Part shown: positions 9,909 to 21,936 of the stretch, piece after piece | Numbering within the stretch: the stretch's first letter is position 1 | How the letters are laid out: each line of letters opens with the position of its first letter | Notes under the pieces: generated by a model | What the model was told of the DNA's origin: nothing | The model's database searches: none | The model's input: the letters and a program-made list of their open reading frames with translations, nothing else | Source: a virus | Length of the DNA stretch: 22,858 bases | Virus record (IMG/VR): IMGVR_UViG_3300019776_000156 | Location: 1-22,858 of that record | Strand: one strand, 5' to 3' | Position numbers and translations under genes: made by a program

Positions 9909-10373
9909 TTAAAGGTTTGGATAAGAAATGGTTGCAGACGTATTTGTTAAAACAAATGAATCCTCGATACCAAATGAAAACTCTGTCTTTGCGCCTGCGG
10001 TTGTTGCCACGGCAAATAATACCTTCCAATCATTACCAGGATTTAACGCCGAAGTATTGATTTGTAAGATTGCCGTTGGTGCTGAGGATTGCCAGTTTGC
10101 GTATGCCTCCTTTCCTGATTCGTCCATCACGGTAACCTTGTAAAAATCGCTTGCACTTGTTACACCTGTAAGCGGTGCAAAGTTCAAGCGCTTTCCAGCT
10201 GAGGAAGTTCCATAAGTGAAAGAAACTGGAATGCGATCCGTAAAGGTATCAATTCCATATAACTTTTCCGCGTTGATTCCACCTGCGTTGGCGTATGGGT
10301 TGGTGCGGTTTAAATTGTTTTGCCCGACGTATGTGTTTGAGTCGGAAAAACCATTGACGTTTGCTGTTGCCAT
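9909..10373 (-). CDS. Putative head decoration / capsid accessory protein
   Basis: A 154-residue protein located between the prohead protease and the major capsid gene, the usual place for decoration or stabilisation proteins. Its ATG overlaps the protease stop by one base (TAATG), and the capsid start follows after 12 bases. The first 40 residues are Asn/Gly-rich and likely flexible (MATANVNGFSDSNTYVGQNN), followed by a beta-rich body with RIPVSFTYGTSSAGKRLNF and DWKVLFAVATTAG and a Thr/Ser-rich end. An N-terminal arm plus a small beta domain fits proteins that cap capsid threefold sites. I do not recognise a named family. Confidence 0.5.
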   Translation of the reverse strand: MATANVNGFSDSNTYVGQNNLNRTNPYANAGGINAEKLYGIDTFTDRIPVSFTYGTSSAGKRLNFAPLTGVTSASDFYKVTVMDESGKEAYANWQSSAPTAILQINTSALNPGNDWKVLFAVATTAGAKTEFSFGIEDSFVLTNTSATISYPNL

Positions 10374-12349: not shown

Positions 12350-15283
12350 TTATAAAGTGGCGTTTATTTTCAATTTATTTCCCTCAGCAAGATCGCGCGC
12401 AATGTCCTCGCTCACAACATAAGCCTGCAACCTGTCTATCCTATTGTTTATCGCATCTGTCTTTGCCTCCATGACTTGCAAAAATTCGTTCATATTATTT
12501 TGTAAACCTAAGCCTTGTATCGGTGGGTTAATCGGTGGAACCATGCCACCTTCAGCGAATCCTTTGATACCAAGTTTCCTGAATGTGGGAGAACCACCCA
12601 ATAAACTTTGTTGGCGTTGGTTCAATACAACCTCACCACGTTTAACATACGCAAGAACATTGTCACCATTTGAACGCGTTGGTATGTTTTGCTTTTGATT
12701 CACCCGTTGCCCTGTGACCACGCCACCCTCGGCAAGGGGCTGGGCTGCAATGGTTGCAATTTGTGCGGCGGCTGCTATACCCGTGGGAATAGCAAGTAAG
12801 AAGCTGCCTTGCGCTAAAGCCCTTTGAAAAGCTAAAGCACCCTGAATGATTGCTTGAATAATGGCAATGCGTTTTTCTTCCTTTGCCGCTTTGATTCTTA
12901 TCGCTTCGGCTTCGGCTTGTTGTTGTTTTAATAATTCCTTTTGTGAGGCAATGTCTCTTTCAATTCTTTTCTTTCTTAATCCACTTGCTTTTTCAGCCTT
13001 TGCCTCCAGTTCTGTTATATTGTTTTCCGTGTTGGTTATTTGCTCGTTTATCGCCTCAGCTTCCTTTTCGGCTCTTGCTTGTTGGAAGGTTGCGATAATA
13101 TCGGTAACGGAAAGAATTGAATTACTGACCGATTCAATTAATTTTTGAGTATTTTCTTGTTTGTCTTTTAATTGCTGGTCATTTATTTCTTTTTGTTTTT
13201 TCGCTGCGTCGGCTGAGTTTTTAATTATTTCATCTTGAACCTTTTTCAAGTCTTCCTTTTCCTTCTTTGCCAAATCCGAAGCCTTAATACTTTTTAAAGG
13301 TTCAACCGTTAACGGAAGCGTCGCAAGTTGCTGGGCATCCTGAAGGTTTTTAAGCAATTTACCACGCGCCGCATCCGCTAAGATTTGGTTTTGTTGTTCA
13401 ACCGCTGATTTGATTTGGTTATTAATTGCGCTCAACTTTACCGCCAATTCTTTCTGTGTCCCTGAGCCAACCACGGCGTTGGAAAAAGCAGTTTGCAATT
13501 TACTTCGTTCATCTTCGAGGGCTGCAAGGGAACCAGCCGCATATTCTTTTGCCGCGTCCCTGCCTCCTTTATTTGCCGTGGTGCTTAACTCTTTATTTTG
13601 AGCTTTTAATCTTTTCTTTTGTTCTTCGGCGTTCTGCTTTTCAAGTGCAATCCGATCCTTTTCAACTTTCTCAATGGCTAACTTATCTTCTTTATCTATC
13701 TTTTGTTTTTCGGCTCTAAATACATCTCGATTCGCTTTTAATGCACCGCTTATGCTTCCCGTTGTAAAAAAGGTTGTTAACCCTGCCCCCATGGCTTTTA
13801 AGGTTGCAGGAAACTCATTTGCGAAATCAAGTAAACCGCCTAATAAGTTGTTAAAAAATATCTTTGCTTTAGATGATATAATTGTAAATTCTCCTCCAAA
13901 CTTTGTGAATGATTCATTTAATTCTGATTGACTTGCTTCCAAGTCTAAGTTTGTTTGGTAAAGAATTTCCTGTTGTGTTTGATATTGGTTTGTTGATTTT
14001 GTGACGTCGTCGGTATTTTTTAAAATCTTTTCCAACGAAAGAATGTAAGCCAAACCAGCATCTTCACCAGCCGCGCCAAAAACATCTGCAATAACCGTCT
14101 GTAATTTATCTCCCGCAATTTCGGTGTCTCTCATTTTGCCGCTTACTAAGGACAAAGCTTCAGCGGTTGTTATTGAGCCATTATTTAAATTCTCAAATAA
14201 TTCTCCCGTAAATTCTTTGCCAAATGCACCCTCTAAAGCATCCTTTGAACTCTTTGTTTGTTCTCTTATCCTGAATCCAAATTCCTTAACAACATTTAAA
14301 CCACTGTCAGAAAATACGCCTTGATTTGCCGCCTCAATTGAAATAGCTAAATAATCTTTAATGCTTAATCCAGCCGCCGCAAATTGCGTTGGATATTCTT
14401 TTAGATTATCTAAGAACTCCCCATTACTATCTGCACCCTTTCTAAATCCTGCCTCAATGGCATCCAATGCCTCATTAAAACCTATACCTAATGCTTTGCT
14501 TGCCGTGTTGGCTGCTACGGTTATTTCATTTACATCTTTTTTATATGTGGTTGATATTGCTTTTGATTTGCTTACAAAATCACTTAATACGTTTCCCGTT
14601 GCCCCCGTGAATGATGCTACTTGATTAGATAACTCTTTTGTTTCAGCAACTGATTCATTTATACTTTGAAATATTTCAGATATACCACTAAATGCGGTTA
14701 ATGCTATTCCAATAGCACCGAGAGACTTGTTAAACGCTCCTGTTGTTGCGCTTAATCCAGTTATGCCCTGTGACAAACCACCTATTAATCCAGTAACCTG
14801 ACCCACCGTTCCCCCAAGCTTAGGGAAAAATTGCCCCAATGCCTCCGTGTAACCTCCGACGTTTCTTTGAAATTGTCCAACCGTGGCATCAATTCCCTTT
14901 AGTTTTTTATCGAGGTTATTGATACTTACCAATAAATCTTTTGCCTCCTGACTTGTTTCTTGTTCCGCTGCCGCCAAATCTTTGTAACGGTTGCGCTGGT
15001 CATTCAATTCCTTGCTTAACTTGCGATAAGCTCCGTTGGCTTTGTCGGTCGCGGTTATTTCTTCGTTGCGGCTTTTGATTTGTTCCTTAACAACTTTGTT
15101 AACCTCCATTTGCGCCGCCTTCAAGTCAACCAACTTCGCTTCAAGTTTCTTTATTTCTTGAACGTCGCTTGTTTTCTTGATTTCCGCGTTTACGTCAGCA
15201 ATGGCTCTTTTTAACTCCGTTGCCGTTTCAACAGTTTTTCCAAGCCCGTCTATTACTATTTGAAAACCTATTACTTTTGACAT
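12350..15283 (-). CDS. Tail tape measure protein
   Basis: A 977-residue protein that spans the inside of the tail and sets its length. The sequence shows a predicted coiled coil at about residues 20-130 (ELKRAIADVNAEIKK onward), Gly/Leu-rich hydrophobic segments at 150-210, a TP901-like tape-measure core with KKDVNEITVAANTASKALG, a second long Lys/Glu/Gln coiled-coil region at about 520-800, a hydrophobic stretch near 815-845, and a C-terminal signature around 850-915 with LAEGGVV, NGDNVLAYVKRGEVVLNQ and KGFAEGGMV, which is common at the ends of Bacteroidota tape measures. The rule of about 0.15 nm per residue suggests a tail near 145 nm (an inference). It starts with a one-base TAATG overlap after the hub-like gene. 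Confidence 0.92.
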   Translation of the reverse strand: MSKVIGFQIVIDGLGKTVETATELKRAIADVNAEIKKTSDVQEIKKLEAKLVDLKAAQMEVNKVVKEQIKSRNEEITATDKANGAYRKLSKELNDQRNRYKDLAAAEQETSQEAKDLLVSINNLDKKLKGIDATVGQFQRNVGGYTEALGQFFPKLGGTVGQVTGLIGGLSQGITGLSATTGAFNKSLGAIGIALTAFSGISEIFQSINESVAETKELSNQVASFTGATGNVLSDFVSKSKAISTTYKKDVNEITVAANTASKALGIGFNEALDAIEAGFRKGADSNGEFLDNLKEYPTQFAAAGLSIKDYLAISIEAANQGVFSDSGLNVVKEFGFRIREQTKSSKDALEGAFGKEFTGELFENLNNGSITTAEALSLVSGKMRDTEIAGDKLQTVIADVFGAAGEDAGLAYILSLEKILKNTDDVTKSTNQYQTQQEILYQTNLDLEASQSELNESFTKFGGEFTIISSKAKIFFNNLLGGLLDFANEFPATLKAMGAGLTTFFTTGSISGALKANRDVFRAEKQKIDKEDKLAIEKVEKDRIALEKQNAEEQKKRLKAQNKELSTTANKGGRDAAKEYAAGSLAALEDERSKLQTAFSNAVVGSGTQKELAVKLSAINNQIKSAVEQQNQILADAARGKLLKNLQDAQQLATLPLTVEPLKSIKASDLAKKEKEDLKKVQDEIIKNSADAAKKQKEINDQQLKDKQENTQKLIESVSNSILSVTDIIATFQQARAEKEAEAINEQITNTENNITELEAKAEKASGLRKKRIERDIASQKELLKQQQAEAEAIRIKAAKEEKRIAIIQAIIQGALAFQRALAQGSFLLAIPTGIAAAAQIATIAAQPLAEGGVVTGQRVNQKQNIPTRSNGDNVLAYVKRGEVVLNQRQQSLLGGSPTFRKLGIKGFAEGGMVPPINPPIQGLGLQNNMNEFLQVMEAKTDAINNRIDRLQAYVVSEDIARDLAEGNKLKINATL

Positions 15284-17718
15284 TATCCTTTTGTTACGCC
15301 GTTTACAATAACTTCATAATTCGCCCCATCGTAATGGGTATCAATGTTTATTCCGATGGTTGAGCCACCGATAATATATTGAATGGTTGGTATCAACTTT
15401 TGTCCGTTCTGGAATACAAGTACATTTGCATTCGTGTTACTTACCTGCGTTATGCCCGAGTTAACGGGTAATACAAGTACGTTGGTCATTGAATTAAGGA
15501 ACGGCGTATAAGATAACTGAATGTTTACCGTCGCTCCATTTGCGCCAACCAAGCCGCTTCCTGACCCTGTAACCGTGCCACCTTGCGGCGGTGCGCCTGC
15601 CAAAGTTATCGTATTGCTTACTTTGCTTAGGTCATTTACATTTGGCTTTTCATCGTATAAAATAACCGTTCTTGCTGGGCTATTGCTTTTGGGATTGTAT
15701 TCCAATTCCTGAATAATGAAATTGGAACTTCCAATCATTCCTTTGCGCCTGAATGACAGTTGCGTTATATCTTTATTTTCCCATTTGACAAAGGTCGTAT
15801 ATTGTTTACCGAGTTCTATTCGCTTGTACGTTTGCAAGTGAAACGTTTTAAAAACGCCTTGCATCACATTTGTATAATTCGTGACCTCGTCGGAAAAAGA
15901 AAGGTTAAAATCTCCACCGCTCGGGTCATTGTAATTTACCATGAACGCCGCTGGAAAATCAAAAGCCGAAGCCGCTGAACTTGCTTCATCGTACAGACGA
16001 ACGTATCCGTCTAATCCGCTGCGCCTCCCTGCATAATAAAGCAAACGAGGTGCAAGGTTGTAATTAGGTTCTGCATCGGGAACGGTATTGTAATCGTCAC
16101 CAAAAACAAGGGGCATCTGCGCCCCGTATGTTCCACCCGTGGTTATTGCCACGTCGTTTATATGAATGGCTTTTGCAAAGAACTTTGTATAAAGAAATTC
16201 AATACCATTTGGAAACCTGTCCTCAGGAAAGTTGTAACCTCCTGAATAAATGTTAACGCCGCGCCTTGCTTCTTCTTTGTTTGTAGTGTCATCATCCGTG
16301 GCATACGCCAACACTTGACTTGATTTGTAATTATCAAGAATGGTTAATTCGCTTCCGTCAATGTCGCGGGTATTTAAATCGTACTTATTCGTATCCTTAA
16401 AAAAGCCGTCAAAGGTTGTAAGGGTAATCGCTCCGCTTGCATTTGCCCTGTATCTTACCGTATAATTGTCCTTTGGGTATGCGTAAACTTGTTTGCTTAG
16501 TACGTCGGTCTCCCATGCTAAATTGAAAATGGTTGTTAAGTCCGCGATAATATCTTTGACATACCATGAATTAGGTATAATATATTGCAAGTTTACCGTT
16601 TCGCCTTGTTCCAAGCCTTCCTTTTCTGCAACCACGGACAAAGAACCTGCGATAACTAAGTTAAATGTTACGTTCTCGTACCTCAACCGCATTTTAACCG
16701 TGTCCCCTGCCACCAAGTCCCCCAGAAATTCAAGGGCTATGGAATCATTCAACGTGGTTTCGTTGGTTAAATCATACGTTGAAACGTTATTTCCGTTGAC
16801 CTCAAAGAAAAGAATGAGTTCTGCAAATTGGTTTAAGTCACCAATCGAAGCCGTTAAGGTAACATTTAACTCAGCGATTAATTCATATAACGCATTTATC
16901 GGAACGGTATAAACGCCGCCTGTGTAATTGCCCCCTGTGTCAAAGTTAGGTGACGTTGTTTCGTTTGTGAATACAATGTCAATTGTCCCATAATCACCTG
17001 AGGAATAAACGAAGGACGAAGGCAAAGGATTGGAAGCCCTCATGTTGACAAAGTCTTTTATATAATCAGCATCCAAGTTTAATCCCATTGGGATAATCAA
17101 ACGACTGAAAGGATCGGTTTTGAAAATACTATTTAATTGGTATCCTTTGTTTTGAAAAGCCTTTTGAAGTATTTGCCAAATGAAAATGGCAGGTGTCAAC
17201 TCATTGTCAACAATGTACGTTTCATTTTCCCAAGCTTTCCATTTCATCAAGATGAAACAATGTTCCGAAGTCAATGGATTATAATTCGTTTTTACCGTTG
17301 CCGTGGATACGGTTATGTCCTGCCAGCCCAATGACCTGACTAAGATATTACCAACGTCTGCAAACCAATCCGCATTGTTTCCAATCAATGCAACCTTGTA
17401 ATTATTTGCTTTGAATCCGTGGTTCATCGCGGTTAATTCGCCTGAATCAAGTCGCGCTTTTCCAGTAAGAATTGGAACGCCGTTTGCCTCCAGCCGTGCA
17501 GATAACAACTTGTAGGCATTGGTAACAATGACGTTGGGCGTTTCAATGTTTTCAAAAATATCAATGTTCGTCTTTGTACCCGGAAGTGTCACATTCCTTT
17601 TCGAGTGCGCTCCCGATATGTTACCAAGCTCAATGTTCTCAATCGAATAATCAATGGTTACATTGACATCCTTTTGGTTTAAATCGACCTCTTGATTATT
17701 TATAAATAATTTTATCAT
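15283..17718 (-). CDS. Putative baseplate/tail hub protein (tail-associated protein) with C-terminal fibre-like module
   Basis: An 811-residue protein starting MIKLFINNQEVDLNQKDVNV, then SGAHSKRNVTLPGTKTN, a beginning I associate with Bacteroidota phage tail proteins next to the tape measure. The body is beta-rich with many aromatic strands, including YVKDIIADLTTIFNLAWETD near 385-405, a pattern like the lysozyme-like or gp27-like hub domains of tail-tip proteins. The last ~75 residues (about 735-811) contain VLVFQNGQKLIPTIQYII and GANYEVIVNG, the same module found twice in the 1214-aa fibre. It starts in an ATGA overlap after the 400-aa gene. In canonical siphophages this gene would come after the tape measure; here it comes before it. 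Confidence 0.6.
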   Translation of the reverse strand: MIKLFINNQEVDLNQKDVNVTIDYSIENIELGNISGAHSKRNVTLPGTKTNIDIFENIETPNVIVTNAYKLLSARLEANGVPILTGKARLDSGELTAMNHGFKANNYKVALIGNNADWFADVGNILVRSLGWQDITVSTATVKTNYNPLTSEHCFILMKWKAWENETYIVDNELTPAIFIWQILQKAFQNKGYQLNSIFKTDPFSRLIIPMGLNLDADYIKDFVNMRASNPLPSSFVYSSGDYGTIDIVFTNETTSPNFDTGGNYTGGVYTVPINALYELIAELNVTLTASIGDLNQFAELILFFEVNGNNVSTYDLTNETTLNDSIALEFLGDLVAGDTVKMRLRYENVTFNLVIAGSLSVVAEKEGLEQGETVNLQYIIPNSWYVKDIIADLTTIFNLAWETDVLSKQVYAYPKDNYTVRYRANASGAITLTTFDGFFKDTNKYDLNTRDIDGSELTILDNYKSSQVLAYATDDDTTNKEEARRGVNIYSGGYNFPEDRFPNGIEFLYTKFFAKAIHINDVAITTGGTYGAQMPLVFGDDYNTVPDAEPNYNLAPRLLYYAGRRSGLDGYVRLYDEASSAASAFDFPAAFMVNYNDPSGGDFNLSFSDEVTNYTNVMQGVFKTFHLQTYKRIELGKQYTTFVKWENKDITQLSFRRKGMIGSSNFIIQELEYNPKSNSPARTVILYDEKPNVNDLSKVSNTITLAGAPPQGGTVTGSGSGLVGANGATVNIQLSYTPFLNSMTNVLVLPVNSGITQVSNTNANVLVFQNGQKLIPTIQYIIGGSTIGINIDTHYDGANYEVIVNGVTKG

Positions 17719-18917
17719 AGCTGAGCGACTGGCGTATTTTGATAAATGATTTCAAAGATAACACCAATGTCCGTCGCCCTGTTGTTATCCGTGTTTATCT
17801 CCCCGTTGGCAATGGTGACGTTTACGTATTTCCCATTTTCAATAATGTATACCTCAGGGGAATCAAACATTGTGGCAATATACAACGCATCCTCATGACT
17901 TACCGCCACCGTGACCGTCTTACTTTTGTTTGACCTTTGATTAACCTTAATTACATTTTTATCAAACGTGTTAGCTTTTGGGCTTGCGGCAATGTTCCAT
18001 CTTTGCGCAAGGTTAATCGTATCTGCGTTGCTTGTTTGCTTATCAATCATTAAGCCCGTAAATTGGTAACTTTCCGCGCCTCCATGCTTACCGAACCAAT
18101 GAAGCTCGATGTTATCGTTGCAATTTGGGTAAATGTAAATACGTTGCCTTTCGCTTAGGCGCGTGAATGCACCGTCGTATGAGCCAACGGAAACGTCGTA
18201 ATAATCGTACAAATCTGGATTGGTTGGAAAATTGCCCGCGTGAAAAATGGCTGTCTTTCCAAATATATTTGAAACGCCAACGGACAAAGAATATAAGTCA
18301 TTGTTTGCCGTTGAGTTTAAATTGTCCACAATAGTAACGGCTGAACTTCCAGACTTTAAATAAAATTCAAATTGAGCCGCGTTTGTCCCACGCCCAAGGT
18401 AGCTTAAGAATATATTTCCCGATGAATTGCATTTTATAAAATCATTCCTTTGTGTCAGGAATAAGAAAGGATTTGCAGAAGGTTGATAAAAGTCCCCCAT
18501 GTCATATTCCCCATCGACGAACAATGAAGGCAAAACGTATGCCGTGGTGCTGCTTTGTGCTGCCGTGGAGGTAACTACGAAGCCAGATGAATTAATCGTT
18601 TGATTAAATGCCGTGCAATACAATGATGAAATAACGTCGGTATTATTTGTAAGGCTGAACCCGTAAAGGTTTCCGAAGAAACTTGTTTTGGCGTTTGTCT
18701 TTGGTGCAAGTTGCGTAATCAAGAAGGATTGGACATTTGTGTCAAACACCGCAGACGTTCCACTTGTTCCCGTTTGAGCCGCCAAGAAAGAACCTTCCAA
18801 TATTCCATCAAGATAAACATTGACTTGCTGTTGAATAACCCCAGACGGTTCAATGGAGCGAAACGCCACGGGGTAAAGGCTGCTTGAAATAGTATCGGGG
18901 TTTATCGTGTAACTCAT
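17715..18917 (-). CDS. Putative distal tail / baseplate protein
   Basis: A 400-residue beta-rich protein. Near residues 255-300 it has IYIYPNCNDNIELHWFGKHG followed by GAESYQFTGL, and its C-terminal part has SHEDALYIATMFDSPEVYII and GVIFEIIYQNTPVAQL. This resembles a Bacteroidota phage tail family in which an 'LxWxNxxGgxdxYtF' motif is followed by a 'wLxxLxxSpeVyl' motif. That resemblance is from memory and not verified. The position immediately upstream of the hub-like gene, coupled by an ATGA overlap, suggests a Dit-like adaptor at the tail tip. A tail-tube or other minor tail role remains possible. Confidence 0.5.
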   Translation of the reverse strand: MSYTINPDTISSSLYPVAFRSIEPSGVIQQQVNVYLDGILEGSFLAAQTGTSGTSAVFDTNVQSFLITQLAPKTNAKTSFFGNLYGFSLTNNTDVISSLYCTAFNQTINSSGFVVTSTAAQSSTTAYVLPSLFVDGEYDMGDFYQPSANPFLFLTQRNDFIKCNSSGNIFLSYLGRGTNAAQFEFYLKSGSSAVTIVDNLNSTANNDLYSLSVGVSNIFGKTAIFHAGNFPTNPDLYDYYDVSVGSYDGAFTRLSERQRIYIYPNCNDNIELHWFGKHGGAESYQFTGLMIDKQTSNADTINLAQRWNIAASPKANTFDKNVIKVNQRSNKSKTVTVAVSHEDALYIATMFDSPEVYIIENGKYVNVTIANGEINTDNNRATDIGVIFEIIYQNTPVAQL

Positions 18918-19441
18918 CTGTTAAGTATTGATTTGTAAAATGTTTCAACCGTTGTTTCAATGCTGTATGTTATCGCCCTGTTTATCAAGTCTGCCATTTC
19001 AGCCTCTTTCTTATCCAACGCCTGTTCAATAAAACCAGTGCGCTTTCCCGTCTTTGAATGCTTTTGACTTTTAATCGTTGGCATACCCTCTTTCTTATGT
19101 TTACTTGCAATAGCGAAGGCGATTGACTTAGCTTCTTTATCCGATGCGCCAAACCTTTGTTTAGCATATCTCATTAAGCCTTTAATATATTCGCTTTCTT
19201 TCCTTCCGCTGCCTGGGTAATAAGGAATCTTTGTTGCAAGTACCCCTTTGTTATTGATTGCCATATACTCAGGAACATAGCCTTCAATAATTAATTCATT
19301 TGTTTGGAAGCGTATAACCGTTTCCATGTTCTTTATAGCTGCCCCCGTCAAGTTGTGCCCTTGCGCCTTCCATTCATTCGCCACGGCTTCGATAGCCATT
19401 TGCGCAATGTCATCCGCTAAAATTTGCAACTCAATTAACAT
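18914..19441 (-). CDS. Putative tail completion / head-tail joining protein
   Basis: A 175-residue protein with an N-terminal helix (LADDIAQMAIEAVANEW), GHNLTGAAIKNMET, a strand region, then FAIASKHKKEGMPTIKSQKH and KTGKRTGFIEQAL near 110-142, and a final helix. The 'NLTGxxxxsm' start and basic 'HxxxGxP...S.TGkrtgFiexaL' part are reminiscent of HK97 gp10-like neck or tail-completion proteins in phages of this phylum. It overlaps the preceding gene by seven bases and the next one as ATGA, so it is part of the same tail operon. The assignment rests on pattern and position, not on catalytic motifs. Confidence 0.45.
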   Translation of the reverse strand: MLIELQILADDIAQMAIEAVANEWKAQGHNLTGAAIKNMETVIRFQTNELIIEGYVPEYMAINNKGVLATKIPYYPGSGRKESEYIKGLMRYAKQRFGASDKEAKSIAFAIASKHKKEGMPTIKSQKHSKTGKRTGFIEQALDKKEAEMADLINRAITYSIETTVETFYKSILNR

Positions 19442-19890
19442 GATGAAATAACGTTTAAGTTGAACGTCGCCTGTACACTTATTAACCTTTGTATCGATGA
19501 AAAGCTATCCAATGTCATTTGAACGCCTTCGGAAATATTACCAGCTTGCTTATTTGTATTTATTTGCAACATGAATTTTTCAGCCAATACGGTTAAGGCT
19601 GACCACTTTTCTATTTGCGTATCCTCGTTCACCGTTCCGTCTTCATTGTAACCAAGCAAGTCATCAAAGAACAAGGTAATTTGATACACGTCGCGGCGTG
19701 TTATCGGGTTGTTGGTAAGCGTTGGAACGGCAAAGAAAACCCTGGGGAATAAGTTTGTACTGTTTTCCCCAACGTCCGCGTAATCCTGTGACCGCGTCCT
19801 GTCCGAAGCCCAACCGAATGAAAAGCCGTTTAACCCTTGCGTTGCGTCTGTGGTACTTTTGAATAAGTCTGCTATTTCTAATAGTGTCAT
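19435..19890 (-). CDS. Putative tail terminator-like protein
   Basis: A 151-residue alpha/beta protein. It opens with a helix (LLEIADLFKSTTD), then has FPRVFFAVPTLT, a strand pair with RRDVYQITLFFDDLLGYNED, a helix WSALTVLAEKFMLQI and a final strand SVQATFNLNV. The helix-strand-strand-helix-strand order and the size are compatible with the tail-terminator (gpU-like) fold. Its ATG lies in an ATGA overlap with the stop of the -1 frame extension rather than with the zero-frame chaperone stop, which lies 180 bases upstream. That links its translation to ribosomes that have frameshifted or re-initiated. A minor tail protein is an alternative. Confidence 0.45.
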   Translation of the reverse strand: MTLLEIADLFKSTTDATQGLNGFSFGWASDRTRSQDYADVGENSTNLFPRVFFAVPTLTNNPITRRDVYQITLFFDDLLGYNEDGTVNEDTQIEKWSALTVLAEKFMLQINTNKQAGNISEGVQMTLDSFSSIQRLISVQATFNLNVISSC

Positions 19891-20159
19891 TTCTTTTGCT
19901 TTTGTATCTCATTGTAAAGGTTATCCTCAGCCGCTTTGCTCGCAAGGTATTGAAAGACCTCATATAAATTTGCCCTTTCGCTTGATTGTAAAGGCGTGAA
20001 CCCTGCCAAGTTGAACAATCCGCACTCAGCTATTTTTTTTATTGTCAAGTACCAACCATATTTGTCATTCAATTGCTTTGAAGCGCTGGCATACTTTTCA
20101 TCGCCTTTTTGAGCATAGAGGTCTGCAAATCTACTTGATAATTCTCGCTTAACTTCATC
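19887..20159 (-). CDS. C-terminal extension of the tail assembly chaperone, made by -1 frameshift (gpGT-like)
   Basis: This frame has no ATG. A caller would report a 61-residue protein from a TTG at 20072, but the frame is open upstream for another 29 codons to a nine-T run at 20160-20168. In the -1 frame it encodes 90 residues after the slip: DEVKRELSSRFADLY, a polar linker, LNDKYGWYLTIKKIAECGLF, FTPLQSSERANLYEVFQYL, and it ends KQKK. A slip on U UUU UUG in the chaperone gene would give about 358 residues (268 + 90). Its stop overlaps the start of the next gene as ATGA. This mirrors gpG/gpGT of lambda-like phages, in which the T part contacts the tape measure or tail tube. Expression by independent initiation at the TTG is the alternative. 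Confidence 0.7.
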   Translation of the reverse strand, partial: DEVKRELSSRFADLYAQKGDEKYASASKQLNDKYGWYLTIKKIAECGLFNLAGFTPLQSSERANLYEVFQYLASKAAEDNLYNEIQKQKK

Positions 20160-20962
20160 AAAAAAAAACCAACCTCAAAAGCAACTTGTAATGGCAATTT
20201 TAAAAAGTCAATGCAATTCCTTTGAAATACCTCGTCGCTATATGCCTCGTCCTTTTTCCTGAGTAACACGGCAATAACATGAAGCAAGCCCTGAGCATCA
20301 TTGTTTTCAATGGCTTTCCTTCCTTTGTCAAATTGGGCTGCCTCAGCGAATTCAAGTAACGTGGATTTTGCCATTAACTTATCAGGAAGGTAATACAAAG
20401 TGCCGTTGAAGTCGTAAATCTGTTTGTATTTCAATTCCTCGGGGACGCTTATTGCATTGAGGATCTTTGTAAACATGAAGGTTAAATATTTTAACTCCAG
20501 ACTTTCGGCAACTTTGCCATAACACGCATCTAAAGGAATACCCGTGAAATAATTTACCACCTTTGCCATGTACGGGTATTTTACCTGCGTCTCCCAGACT
20601 TCGTCCATGATTTCAAAGCATTCAATAAGTTTACTTTGACTTTGATTAAATTGGTCAATCAATGCTGGAAGGAAACGGCGAACATTGTCTTTGACATCTT
20701 TTGTCAAAAGAATTATTTCACATTCCTGAATAACGTCCTCACGCAATTTAAACAAATCAATGCCCAACTTCTTTGCATACGGTTTAATCTTTTCATAAGC
20801 CGCAATCATTTGCTTTTGTGCTATCAAGGCATCAAGTTCAACTTCGGGGTATTGAGGAAGGATAAACTTATGGAAATAAACGTATTGTTCAAGCGTTATA
20901 TCCGATGCCGTCTCAGGATAAAAATACTTTGTATCGGAGTGGCTTAAATGAAATTGTACCAT
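20069..20962 (-). CDS. Putative tail assembly chaperone (gpG-like, zero-frame product)
   Basis: A 297-residue mostly helical protein. It starts MVQFHLSHSDTKYFYPETAS, has ITLEQYVYFHKFILPQYPEV, a middle with YYLPDKLMAKSTLLEFAEAA, then LLHVIAVLLRKKDEAYSDEV and KLPLQVAFEVGFFLMKLSEN. The order 'strand of LP.. , sTxxEfaea, LlxxiAxLlRkkdexY, lPlxvaxxvgFFlmkL' is one I associate with Bacteroidota tail-chaperone-like proteins. The strongest support is the slippery heptamer at codons 267-268 followed by a long -1 open extension, the hallmark of chaperone genes. The zero-frame C-terminus is 30 residues past the slip. Unusually, it is about 4.8 kb upstream of the tape measure instead of beside it. It starts with a one-base overlap after the 99-aa gene. 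Confidence 0.6.
   Translation of the reverse strand: MVQFHLSHSDTKYFYPETASDITLEQYVYFHKFILPQYPEVELDALIAQKQMIAAYEKIKPYAKKLGIDLFKLREDVIQECEIILLTKDVKDNVRRFLPALIDQFNQSQSKLIECFEIMDEVWETQVKYPYMAKVVNYFTGIPLDACYGKVAESLELKYLTFMFTKILNAISVPEELKYKQIYDFNGTLYYLPDKLMAKSTLLEFAEAAQFDKGRKAIENNDAQGLLHVIAVLLRKKDEAYSDEVFQRNCIDFLKLPLQVAFEVGFFLMKLSENYQVDLQTSMLKKAMKSMPALQSN
20159..20165 (-). promoter_or_regulatory. Programmed -1 frameshift slippery heptamer (U UUU UUG)
   Basis: Nine consecutive T on the minus strand (20168-20160) followed by G give the heptamer T|TTT|TTG in the chaperone reading frame (codons Phe267 and Leu268). This matches the X XXY YYZ rule, and both tRNAs can re-pair after a -1 slip. The -1 frame is closed by a TGA just 5' of the run and open for 91 codons (with stop) after it. 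GAGG lies at 20176-20173, a possible stimulatory Shine-Dalgarno-like element, although such elements are weak in Bacteroidota. I did not identify a clear downstream stem-loop by eye. Confidence 0.65.
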
Positions 20963-21261
20963 TATTTGCGCCTGTTTTTCTTTGTTGGTTCGGGAATATT
21001 ATCTGCAATTATTGCGCTCGGTTCTACGCTTTTTACATTTTCTTTAACCTCTGGGGTTAATACTTTTGCATGGCTAACAAGTGGCAAAGATTCAGGACGT
21101 TTCAACTCCCTGTACCTGCCAGTGCCCGTCAACCGTACCGCCTTTTCCAAGTGGGAGCGAAGGAGAAGAAGTTGTTTCCTTCGCATTGGGTGTTCTTGTA
21201 TTTCTTTGGTTATTTCCTCAATCAGGTGAATGATGTAAACCGCCTTTTCGTTGTTTGTCAT
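20962..21261 (-). CDS. Small basic hypothetical protein
   Basis: A 99-residue protein. The N-terminal half is helical (NNEKAVYIIHLIEEITKEIQ) with a basic MRRKQLLLLRSHLEK segment; the rest is Pro/Val/Lys-rich and likely disordered, ending PTKKNRRK. No motif points to a function that I recognise. It is coupled by ATGA to the preceding MTPKEKA-type gene and by TAATG to the chaperone gene. The N-terminal helix pattern (xxEKAxxIIxLIxE) loosely recalls the start of the three upstream paralogs, but the remainder does not align by eye. Confidence 0.6.
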   Translation of the reverse strand: MTNNEKAVYIIHLIEEITKEIQEHPMRRKQLLLLRSHLEKAVRLTGTGRYRELKRPESLPLVSHAKVLTPEVKENVKSVEPSAIIADNIPEPTKKNRRK

Positions 21262-21500
21262 TTCGTTATTATGTTTTTTAAATGCAGTTCAACTTCGCAC
21301 CAATAAGCCGTGTTTTCATCCACGTATGAGCCAAGTTGTCCGCAAATCGTTTGGTTGTTACTTATAATTACGTCTGTCAAAAGCAAGCATATTTTCTTTG
21401 CCTTTTTAAATCCGTCGTATTCACCCGTGACATTATGCCTGTATGGCAATTGGTCATATATTTGTAAATGCAATTCCCTTGCTTTGTCTTTCGGTGTCAT
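21258..21500 (-). CDS. MTPKEKA-type small protein, paralog 3 (most diverged)
   Basis: An 80-residue protein beginning MTPKDKARELHLQIYDQL and ending YWCEVELHLKN. It aligns at both ends with the two genes just upstream (shared MTPK-KA...L start, central helix with AKKICLLLTDVIIS and a W-x-EV-x-x-x-L end) but has a different middle. Small proteins with this start are frequent in Bacteroidota phages and prophages and have no known function. It is joined to both neighbours by ATGA overlaps. Confidence 0.65.
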   Translation of the reverse strand: MTPKDKARELHLQIYDQLPYRHNVTGEYDGFKKAKKICLLLTDVIISNNQTICGQLGSYVDENTAYWCEVELHLKNIITK

Positions 21501-21715
21501 AGGTTATCAAGTTCTTGTTTTACTTCTTTCCAGTAATTAATAGAAGGAGATGTGTTGTGCGTAGTCGTTAAAAGATAATGGATTTTTATTAACTCGTCCA
21601 CGGCAATCAAAGCGCATCTTTTTGCGTTTTGGTCTTTTATTCTATCGTTTAAAAATGATAGTATTTCATTCCTAAACTTATCAACTAACTCCTGCGCCTT
21701 TTCCTTCGGTGTCAT
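21497..21715 (-). CDS. MTPKEKA-type small protein, paralog 2
   Basis: A 72-residue protein: MTPKEKAQELVDKFRNEIL, a central AKRCALIAVDELIKIHYLL helix and the end YWKEVKQELDNL. It is clearly homologous to the next gene upstream. The two share a perfect 26-base direct repeat at their 3' ends, which points to duplication or recent exchange between them. The proteins look helical and soluble, with no metal-binding or catalytic motif that I can see. ATGA overlaps join it to both neighbours. Confidence 0.65.
   Translation of the reverse strand: MTPKEKAQELVDKFRNEILSFLNDRIKDQNAKRCALIAVDELIKIHYLLTTTHNTSPSINYWKEVKQELDNL
21507..21532 (-). repeat. 26-base direct repeat, copy in paralog 2
   Basis: The plus-strand 26-mer from 21507 to 21532 is identical to 21722-21747. 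It encodes the WKEVKQEL-type C-terminus of paralog 2. The copies lie 215 bases apart, about one gene length, as expected from tandem duplication or from recombination between neighbouring paralogs. Confidence 0.85.
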
Positions 21716-21936
21716 AGTTTTTCAAGTTCTTGTTTTACTTCTTTCCAAAAATGAGTATGTTCAACGCTATTATATTTCCAAATAGCACATTTTATTATTT
21801 CATCCACGGCAACCAAGGCGTGTCCCTTTGCCTTGGATGAATCAATGTGTTCAACCCAGCCTTTTGTTTCAGTTAAAATTTTTCTGCGTTCACTAAACTT
21901 ATTAATCAAATCGTCTGCTTTTTCCTTTGGTGTCAT
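21712..21936 (-). CDS. MTPKEKA-type small protein, paralog 1
   Basis: A 74-residue protein beginning MTPKEKADDLINKFSERRKI, with GWVEHIDSSKAKGHALVAVD in the middle, then EIIKCAIWKY, ending FWKEVKQELEKL. It is the first of three tandem paralogs that directly follow the terminase gene, separated from it by six bases. The conserved elements are the MTPKEKA start, the AxxxALxAVDEII helix and the (W/Y)WKEVKQEL end; the middles vary. Function is unknown. Confidence 0.65.
   Translation of the reverse strand: MTPKEKADDLINKFSERRKILTETKGWVEHIDSSKAKGHALVAVDEIIKCAIWKYNSVEHTHFWKEVKQELEKL
21722..21747 (-). repeat. 26-base direct repeat, copy in paralog 1
   Basis: This is the partner of the copy at 21507-21532, with identical bases throughout. 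It encodes the matching C-terminal segment of paralog 1. The identity ends sharply on both sides, so it is longer than expected from conserved protein sequence alone and suggests a recent exchange. Confidence 0.85.

Follow-up and report, generated by a model that had tools for sequence, protein, structure and literature searches.

A conserved nine-T run as a candidate site of programmed frame change in a tail gene of Bacteroidota phages

Tail chaperones that occur in two forms, the second arising by frameshifting, are a classic example of ribosomal recoding. The lambda proteins gpG and gpGT bind the tape measure protein and the major tail protein and are absent from the virion, and the ratio of the long to the short form matters; their gene lies between those for the major tail protein and the tape measure protein and adjoins the latter. 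A single gene of the tail block gives rise to two products with a common N-terminus, the longer one by a net -1 shift of frame close to the 3' end (reviewed in PMC5009743), and the shift takes place at a heptamer with stimulators. Among HK97-like genes that have been tested, ribosomal frameshifting occurs at 6-7% (PMC3711429).

Long homopolymer runs offer another route to a second product. In Shigella mxiE and spa13, Citrobacter tssM1 and Thermus dnaX, RNA polymerase can add bases when it transcribes a long A/T run (PMC1088944, PMC4256274, PMC5009743); the outcome is a longer second product in mxiE (PMC1088944) and in tssM1, where it amounts to about 20-25% (PMC4256274). In bacteria, transcriptional slippage usually sets in at nine A or T, and this is also the length from which genes tend to avoid such runs (PMC1088944).

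Here we describe a gene found in the 22,858-nucleotide stretch of viral DNA that we analysed (IMG/VR record IMGVR_UViG_3300019776_000156, referred to below as the window). We propose that this tail-morphogenesis gene gives two proteins sharing their first ~267 residues. The short form, of 297 aa, would come from the gene read as written, and the long form, of ~358 aa, from a programmed net -1 frame change at a run of nine T (T9), ending in a separately conserved C-terminal domain of ~90 residues. The layout is that of gpG/gpGT, with a long T run in place of a heptamer with stimulators.

The slip site and its surroundings in the window

The run, on the minus strand, consists of exactly nine T followed by G (Table 1), and the window holds no other T run of nine or more. 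The zero-frame codons across it are GGT TTT TTT TTG. An earlier reading made from the sequence alone had noted that U UUU UUG falls on codons 267-268 of the 297-aa gene and had taken this heptamer as the site of ribosomal slippage; the heptamer is exactly where it was placed, and it is one of two in-frame candidates of the X_XXY_YYZ type used for ribosomal -1 frameshifting, U_UUU_UUU (20168-20162) and U_UUU_UUG (20165-20159).

The other features listed in that reading are likewise all present. The -1 frame is blocked by a TGA just upstream of the run and then stays open, without any ATG, until its stop at 19889-19887; the earliest start that could be used in this frame is a TTG at 20072, which overlaps the zero-frame stop. 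The stop of the extension and the start of the following 151-aa gene (19890) share an ATGA.

Table 1. Features of the slip site and of the neighbouring genes in the window
Feature	Position	Strand	Basis
Zero-frame gene, 297 aa, short product	20069..20962	-	ORF; relatives; AlphaFold2
T9 run, putative slip site	20160..20168	-	sequence; kept in relatives; synonymous-choice probability
-1 frame extension, 93 codons from the run; predicted fused product ~358 aa	19887..20168	-	open frame; third-position variation; motif
Zero-frame stop TGA, overlapped by TTG (only early -1 frame start)	20069..20071	-	sequence, ORFs
TGA closing the -1 frame upstream of the run	20175..20177	-	sequence; absent in some relatives
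151-aa gene, start overlaps extension stop (ATGA)	19435..19890	-	ORF; syntenic in most relatives
175-aa gene	18914..19441	-	synteny; position of P12024L gp43
400-aa gene, syntenic	17715..18917	-	synteny
811-aa gene, syntenic	15283..17718	-	synteny
Tape measure protein, 977 aa	12350..15283	-	Pfam PhageMin_Tail 3e-12, PHROG_1272 1e-14
99-aa gene between terminase and frameshift gene	20962..21261	-	ORF; synteny
Terminase large subunit (TerL), cut by contig end	21943..22857	-	Pfam Terminase_3 9e-18

The order TerL, (99-aa gene), frameshift gene, 151-, 175-, 400- and 811-aa genes and tape measure gene is kept in the relatives examined, with the 99-aa and 151-aa genes sometimes undetectable. The frameshift gene is thus consistently separated from the tape measure gene by four genes (151, 175, 400 and 811 aa), and the distance that the sequence-only reading had remarked upon is real and conserved. 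The 175-aa protein of the window has no direct family match. In two relatives (L147:3119-5389 and L309:6562-8196), the homologue of the 151-aa protein sits inside a far longer open frame, of 757 and at least 545 aa, which suggests an insertion or a fusion.

Two further observations concern other genes of the window. Three adjoining small genes between TerL and the frameshift gene (21258-21936; 80, 72 and 74 aa) all start with MTPK(E/D)KA and are apparently tandem paralogues. At 1163-2668, the C-terminal SDFRDKTNIENLNTGLDLILKLRPVKFQWN of a 501-aa protein resembles, by eye, the S74-type self-cleaving chaperone domain of tail fibres.

Conservation of the run and of the extension

Relatives were counted as distinct DNA variants carrying both ORFs, of which there are 77, falling into 16 groups at less than 70% protein identity. 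Identity among them reaches down to about 25-30% at the protein level and their G+C content ranges from 31 to 54%. The run is T9 in 76 variants and T10 in one, and the extension lies in the -1 frame in all 77; in no relative does the extension occur in the absence of the run.

This result was obtained with queries that differ in their dependence on the run. The 297-aa protein retrieved 33 contigs at 89-95% identity, with T9 in every one that spans the site. With the 811-aa neighbour as query, which is blind to the run, the frameshift-gene relatives recovered are only 57-60% identical, and all those with a full site carry T9 and the -1 extension. Diverse alignments used as queries extended the set to members of 25-35% identity, with G+C contents of up to 50-54%, and here too every run is T9. 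Finally, a query consisting of the extension only, i.e., the sequence after the run, could not select for the run itself, and yet the 21 contigs inspected from this search are all T9 except for one. In this exception (L323), a G-to-T substitution has turned T9-G into T10-C and left the frame unchanged.

Homopolymers in general attract errors and mutate readily, and a nine-T run might therefore be a sequencing or assembly error, mark a decayed single gene, or act as an on/off switch through replication slippage; nothing found at this site points that way. We regard these explanations as the least probable of those considered, since the run length is constant in 76 of the 77 variants, from many assemblies and two cultured phage genomes, T8 is not seen at the slip site in any of the 77, the sole T10 arose by substitution, and both frames are under selection.

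The pattern of variation in the close group follows the codon structure of the two frames. Upstream of the run, variable sites at zero-frame codon positions 1, 2 and 3 number 54, 29 and 176; in the overlap they number 6, 8 and 7; and past the zero-frame stop 3, 29 and 7, where the 29 correspond to third positions of the -1 frame. At the run, codon periodicity passes from the zero frame to the -1 frame. Across the family, the extension forms a conserved domain with the motif GWY...IAES/CG..FN, in which GWY and AE.G.F are invariant, and conservation extends to the residues that the -1 frame encodes from the run to the zero-frame stop.

The latter residues argue against a separate small protein, encoded by the 61-aa frame and translated by coupling from the TTG (or an ATG) overlapping the zero-frame stop. 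Such a start is present in the window, and the corresponding genes of two cultured phages discussed below (P12024L gp41 and P12024S gp39) are annotated in this way, but in 56 of the 77 variants there is no ATG, GTG or TTG in the -1 frame within 12 nt of the zero-frame stop, and a separately initiated protein would not need the run to be conserved. We therefore consider it very improbable. With starts mostly absent, run length constant and both frames selected, separate initiation, sequencing error and phase variation were all rejected.

Selection on the run itself was gauged from codon choice. Given the amino acids and the local codon use, the probability of the codons observed at the run is 0.002-0.08 per lineage in the 16 lineages below 70% identity, and the product over them is ~1e-25, a value that is only indicative because the lineages are not fully independent. 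The wobble-position T preceding the run (in GGT, GCT, TCT or TGT) and the TTG that ends it are each kept in 15-16 lineages, each with a probability of ~1e-10 by codon choice. Comparison of the relatives thus shows that both frames are coding, and that the run is under selection in its own right.

Two of the accompanying features are less general. The -1 frame is open for a further 15-108 nt upstream in 26 of the 77 variants, and a TGA before the run is therefore not required; of the conservation expected by the sequence-only reading, the run and the open extension held throughout, and the closed frame before the run did not. The ATGA overlap between the extension stop and the next gene is present in 57 of the 77. 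Taken together, the conservation of the run, the -1 extension and the shift in codon periodicity make it almost certain, as far as comparative evidence goes, that a programmed frame change joins the gene to its start-less extension, as that reading had proposed. Of the findings that it had named as refuting this view (an extension lacking the slip sequence, a start for the 61-aa frame, an error in the run), none turned up.

No cultured phage was matched by sequence when the 297-aa protein, the fused protein or distant members served as query, and the link to a cultured phage came solely via the extension profile and the predicted fold. The profile matches Nonlabens phage P12024L (E=2.6e-5), in which gp40-gp41 (NC_018272), like gp38-gp39 of phage P12024S (NC_018271), form an overlapping pair in -1 relation at a T9 and are annotated as two separate hypothetical genes. 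The pair directly follows TerL, and from there to the tape measure gene the order is that of the window; P12024L gp43, which takes the place of the 175-aa gene, is a match to PHROG_5 ('tail completion or Neck1', E=4e-4) and gp50 matches a tape measure family (E=6e-12). The frameshift gene therefore belongs to a tail block. The Nonlabens genes differ in that the zero-frame protein is only 175 aa long and in that the run starts one base earlier in the codon frame, reading CTT TTT TTT TAT and lacking U_UUU_UUG. These nearest cultured relatives support the assignment of the window to a Bacteroidota phage.

The 297-aa protein is predicted to be mostly helical, with its last ~25 residues disordered. 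An AlphaFold2 model built from 30 diverse rows has a pLDDT of 80 and a pTM of 0.72, and one built from 22 close rows is poor (pLDDT 54). In a viral fold library, and independently of the extension profile, the model of the zero-frame protein matches P12024S gp38 (E=3e-4) and, more weakly, gp10 of Flavobacterium phage 6H. In phage 6H (L393), gp10 is followed by an unannotated gap of 304 nt (10048-10351) containing an extension-like stretch, GLGMKGVLLSMAESGVYG, that can be reached only by crossing frames, which could reflect either recoding or sequencing errors.

The frameshift gene had no close relative in the bacterial genomes scanned. Two Bacteroidota genomes (L318 in G077 and L320 in G365) carry genes of ~271 and 291 aa in which both domains seem to be joined in frame in a single ORF; with hhalign values of 92% and 85%, respectively, these lookalikes are too distant to carry weight. 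Cellulophaga phage Ingeline gp5, which looked alike by eye, was rejected as a relative because the profile comparison gave only 2.6%.

Possible transcriptional and ribosomal routes to the long form

For a ribosomal route, the -1 shift would occur at U_UUU_UUG, at U_UUU_UUU or at both, in the style of lambda gpG/gpGT, and would give the junction G-F-F-L-D. Ribosomal frameshifting is the mechanism of the known tail chaperone pairs of the lambda type (PMC5009743), nearly every variant has both heptamers in frame, and U_UUU_UUU is in frame in every T9 and in every member. For a transcriptional route, RNA polymerase would add one U on the nine-T run to give a U10 mRNA, with the junction G-F-F-F-D.

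The first observation that bears on the choice is that the conserved unit is the whole nine-T run and not one heptamer. U_UUU_UUG alone would not need the wobble T, and U_UUU_UUU alone would not need the terminal TTG; since both are kept, no single heptamer explains the conservation. Moreover, P12024L and P12024S lack U_UUU_UUG. A homopolymer of about nine or more, kept in whatever codon phase, is what slippage by RNA polymerase would call for, and T9 or T10 is found throughout, in two phases.

Slippage would also lead one to expect such runs to be depleted elsewhere in coding sequence, and they are. In the coding sequence of the same phages, with the slip site excluded and the expectation taken from synonymous shuffling, we counted 3 T8+ runs where 11.8 were expected and no T9+ run (2.1 expected), as well as 16 A8+ runs (35.6 expected) and 4 A9+ runs (13.2 expected). 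This avoidance may instead reflect replication slippage. For the heptamers, U_UUU_UUG is not depleted elsewhere (8 against 10.9 ± 2.7 expected), which speaks against its use by ribosomes, whereas in-frame U_UUU_UUU is mildly depleted (23 seen, 31.5 expected, SD 4.5), as a slippery heptamer would be.

Pseudoknot-free folding of 17 representatives gave no downstream RNA structure (z-scores of -1.7 to +1.9), a further point against ribosomal frameshifting. Some known ribosomal -1 sites need no such structure. With all nine T conserved in either of two codon phases, no RNA structure found and long runs depleted elsewhere, slippage is favoured, and we lean towards RNA polymerase as the main route, with ribosomal slippage the main alternative or a contributor; as the source of the long form in its own right, the ribosomal shift is rather unlikely. 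The sequence-only reading was right about a heptamer in frame, and the evidence on mechanism points more to transcription. In the bacterial genes mxiE, spa13, tssM1 and dnaX slippage has been shown experimentally, whereas at T9 we infer it.

A probable tail assembly role and a second family with a homopolymer run

Comparative evidence gives the pair a hallmark of gpG/gpGT, namely two products with a shared N-terminus made by a net -1 change near the 3' end of the gene. In contrast, gpG/gpGT adjoin the tape measure gene and the window pair lies four genes away from it, and no sequence match or clear fold match between the two was found. Comparisons of the frameshift gene with Pfam, PHROG and PDB folds found no match to a known chaperone, and one BFVD fold annotated as a chaperone is matched weakly (E=1.5). 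The tail chaperone role put forward in the sequence-only reading is nevertheless plausible, and more likely than not, on the basis of layout and of position within the conserved block that runs from TerL to the tape measure gene; the pair would then work like gpG/gpGT, the long form being needed in a set ratio.

PHROG_8914, a separate family of tail chaperones from Bacteroidota phages, also carries a conserved homopolymer run. It includes the annotated tail chaperone of Elizabethkingia phage TCUEAP2, as well as proteins of B124-14 and P2559Y, and no homology with the window family is detectable (hhalign probability 0.2%). Unlike the window gene, these genes lie directly before the tape measure gene and have a poly-A run of 8-11 in mid-gene. 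Among the 14 phages examined (L068:11250-11259 in TCUEAP2, L069:11244-11253 in BKO1-3, and L395-L406), the run is A10 in nine, A11 in three (Fpv11, tant8-1 and BF8P1), A9 in BF486P2 and A8 in P2559S; the A8 and A11 runs may be artefacts of sequencing. Eleven of the 14 have the long form in frame, and a frame change is needed in 1/32 (A10), BF8P1 and P2559S. In TCUEAP2 and BKO1-3, the two that were read out, both other frames stop just past the run. The run is thus kept while the frame relation varies, as slippage would give. It is conceivable, but we put it forward only tentatively, that Bacteroidota siphophages make both tail-assembly forms by RNA-polymerase slippage and not by ribosomal frameshifting in two unrelated families, one with T9 and the other with poly-A of 8-11.

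The principle is already known, and the chaperone of Flavobacterium phage 1/32 (KJ018210, F132_37/38), already annotated as a joined, frameshifted gene, is a precedent in a Flavobacterium phage. The T9 family, its fixed run length across large divergence, the position of the gene and the case for transcriptional slippage are new; we found no published description of the T9 family or of the PHROG_8914 poly-A run in the openly licensed literature. For annotation, paired 'hypothetical' genes in Bacteroidota phages such as those of P12024L and P12024S would be treated as one frameshifted gene.

With exactly nine T kept at such different base compositions and down to the lowest identities in the family, this run would stand out in tailed phages as a strong candidate for programmed slippage during transcription. 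The mechanism is open to direct test in the cultured Nonlabens phages. If slippage is indeed the route, it would be RNA polymerase that sets the ratio of the two forms.
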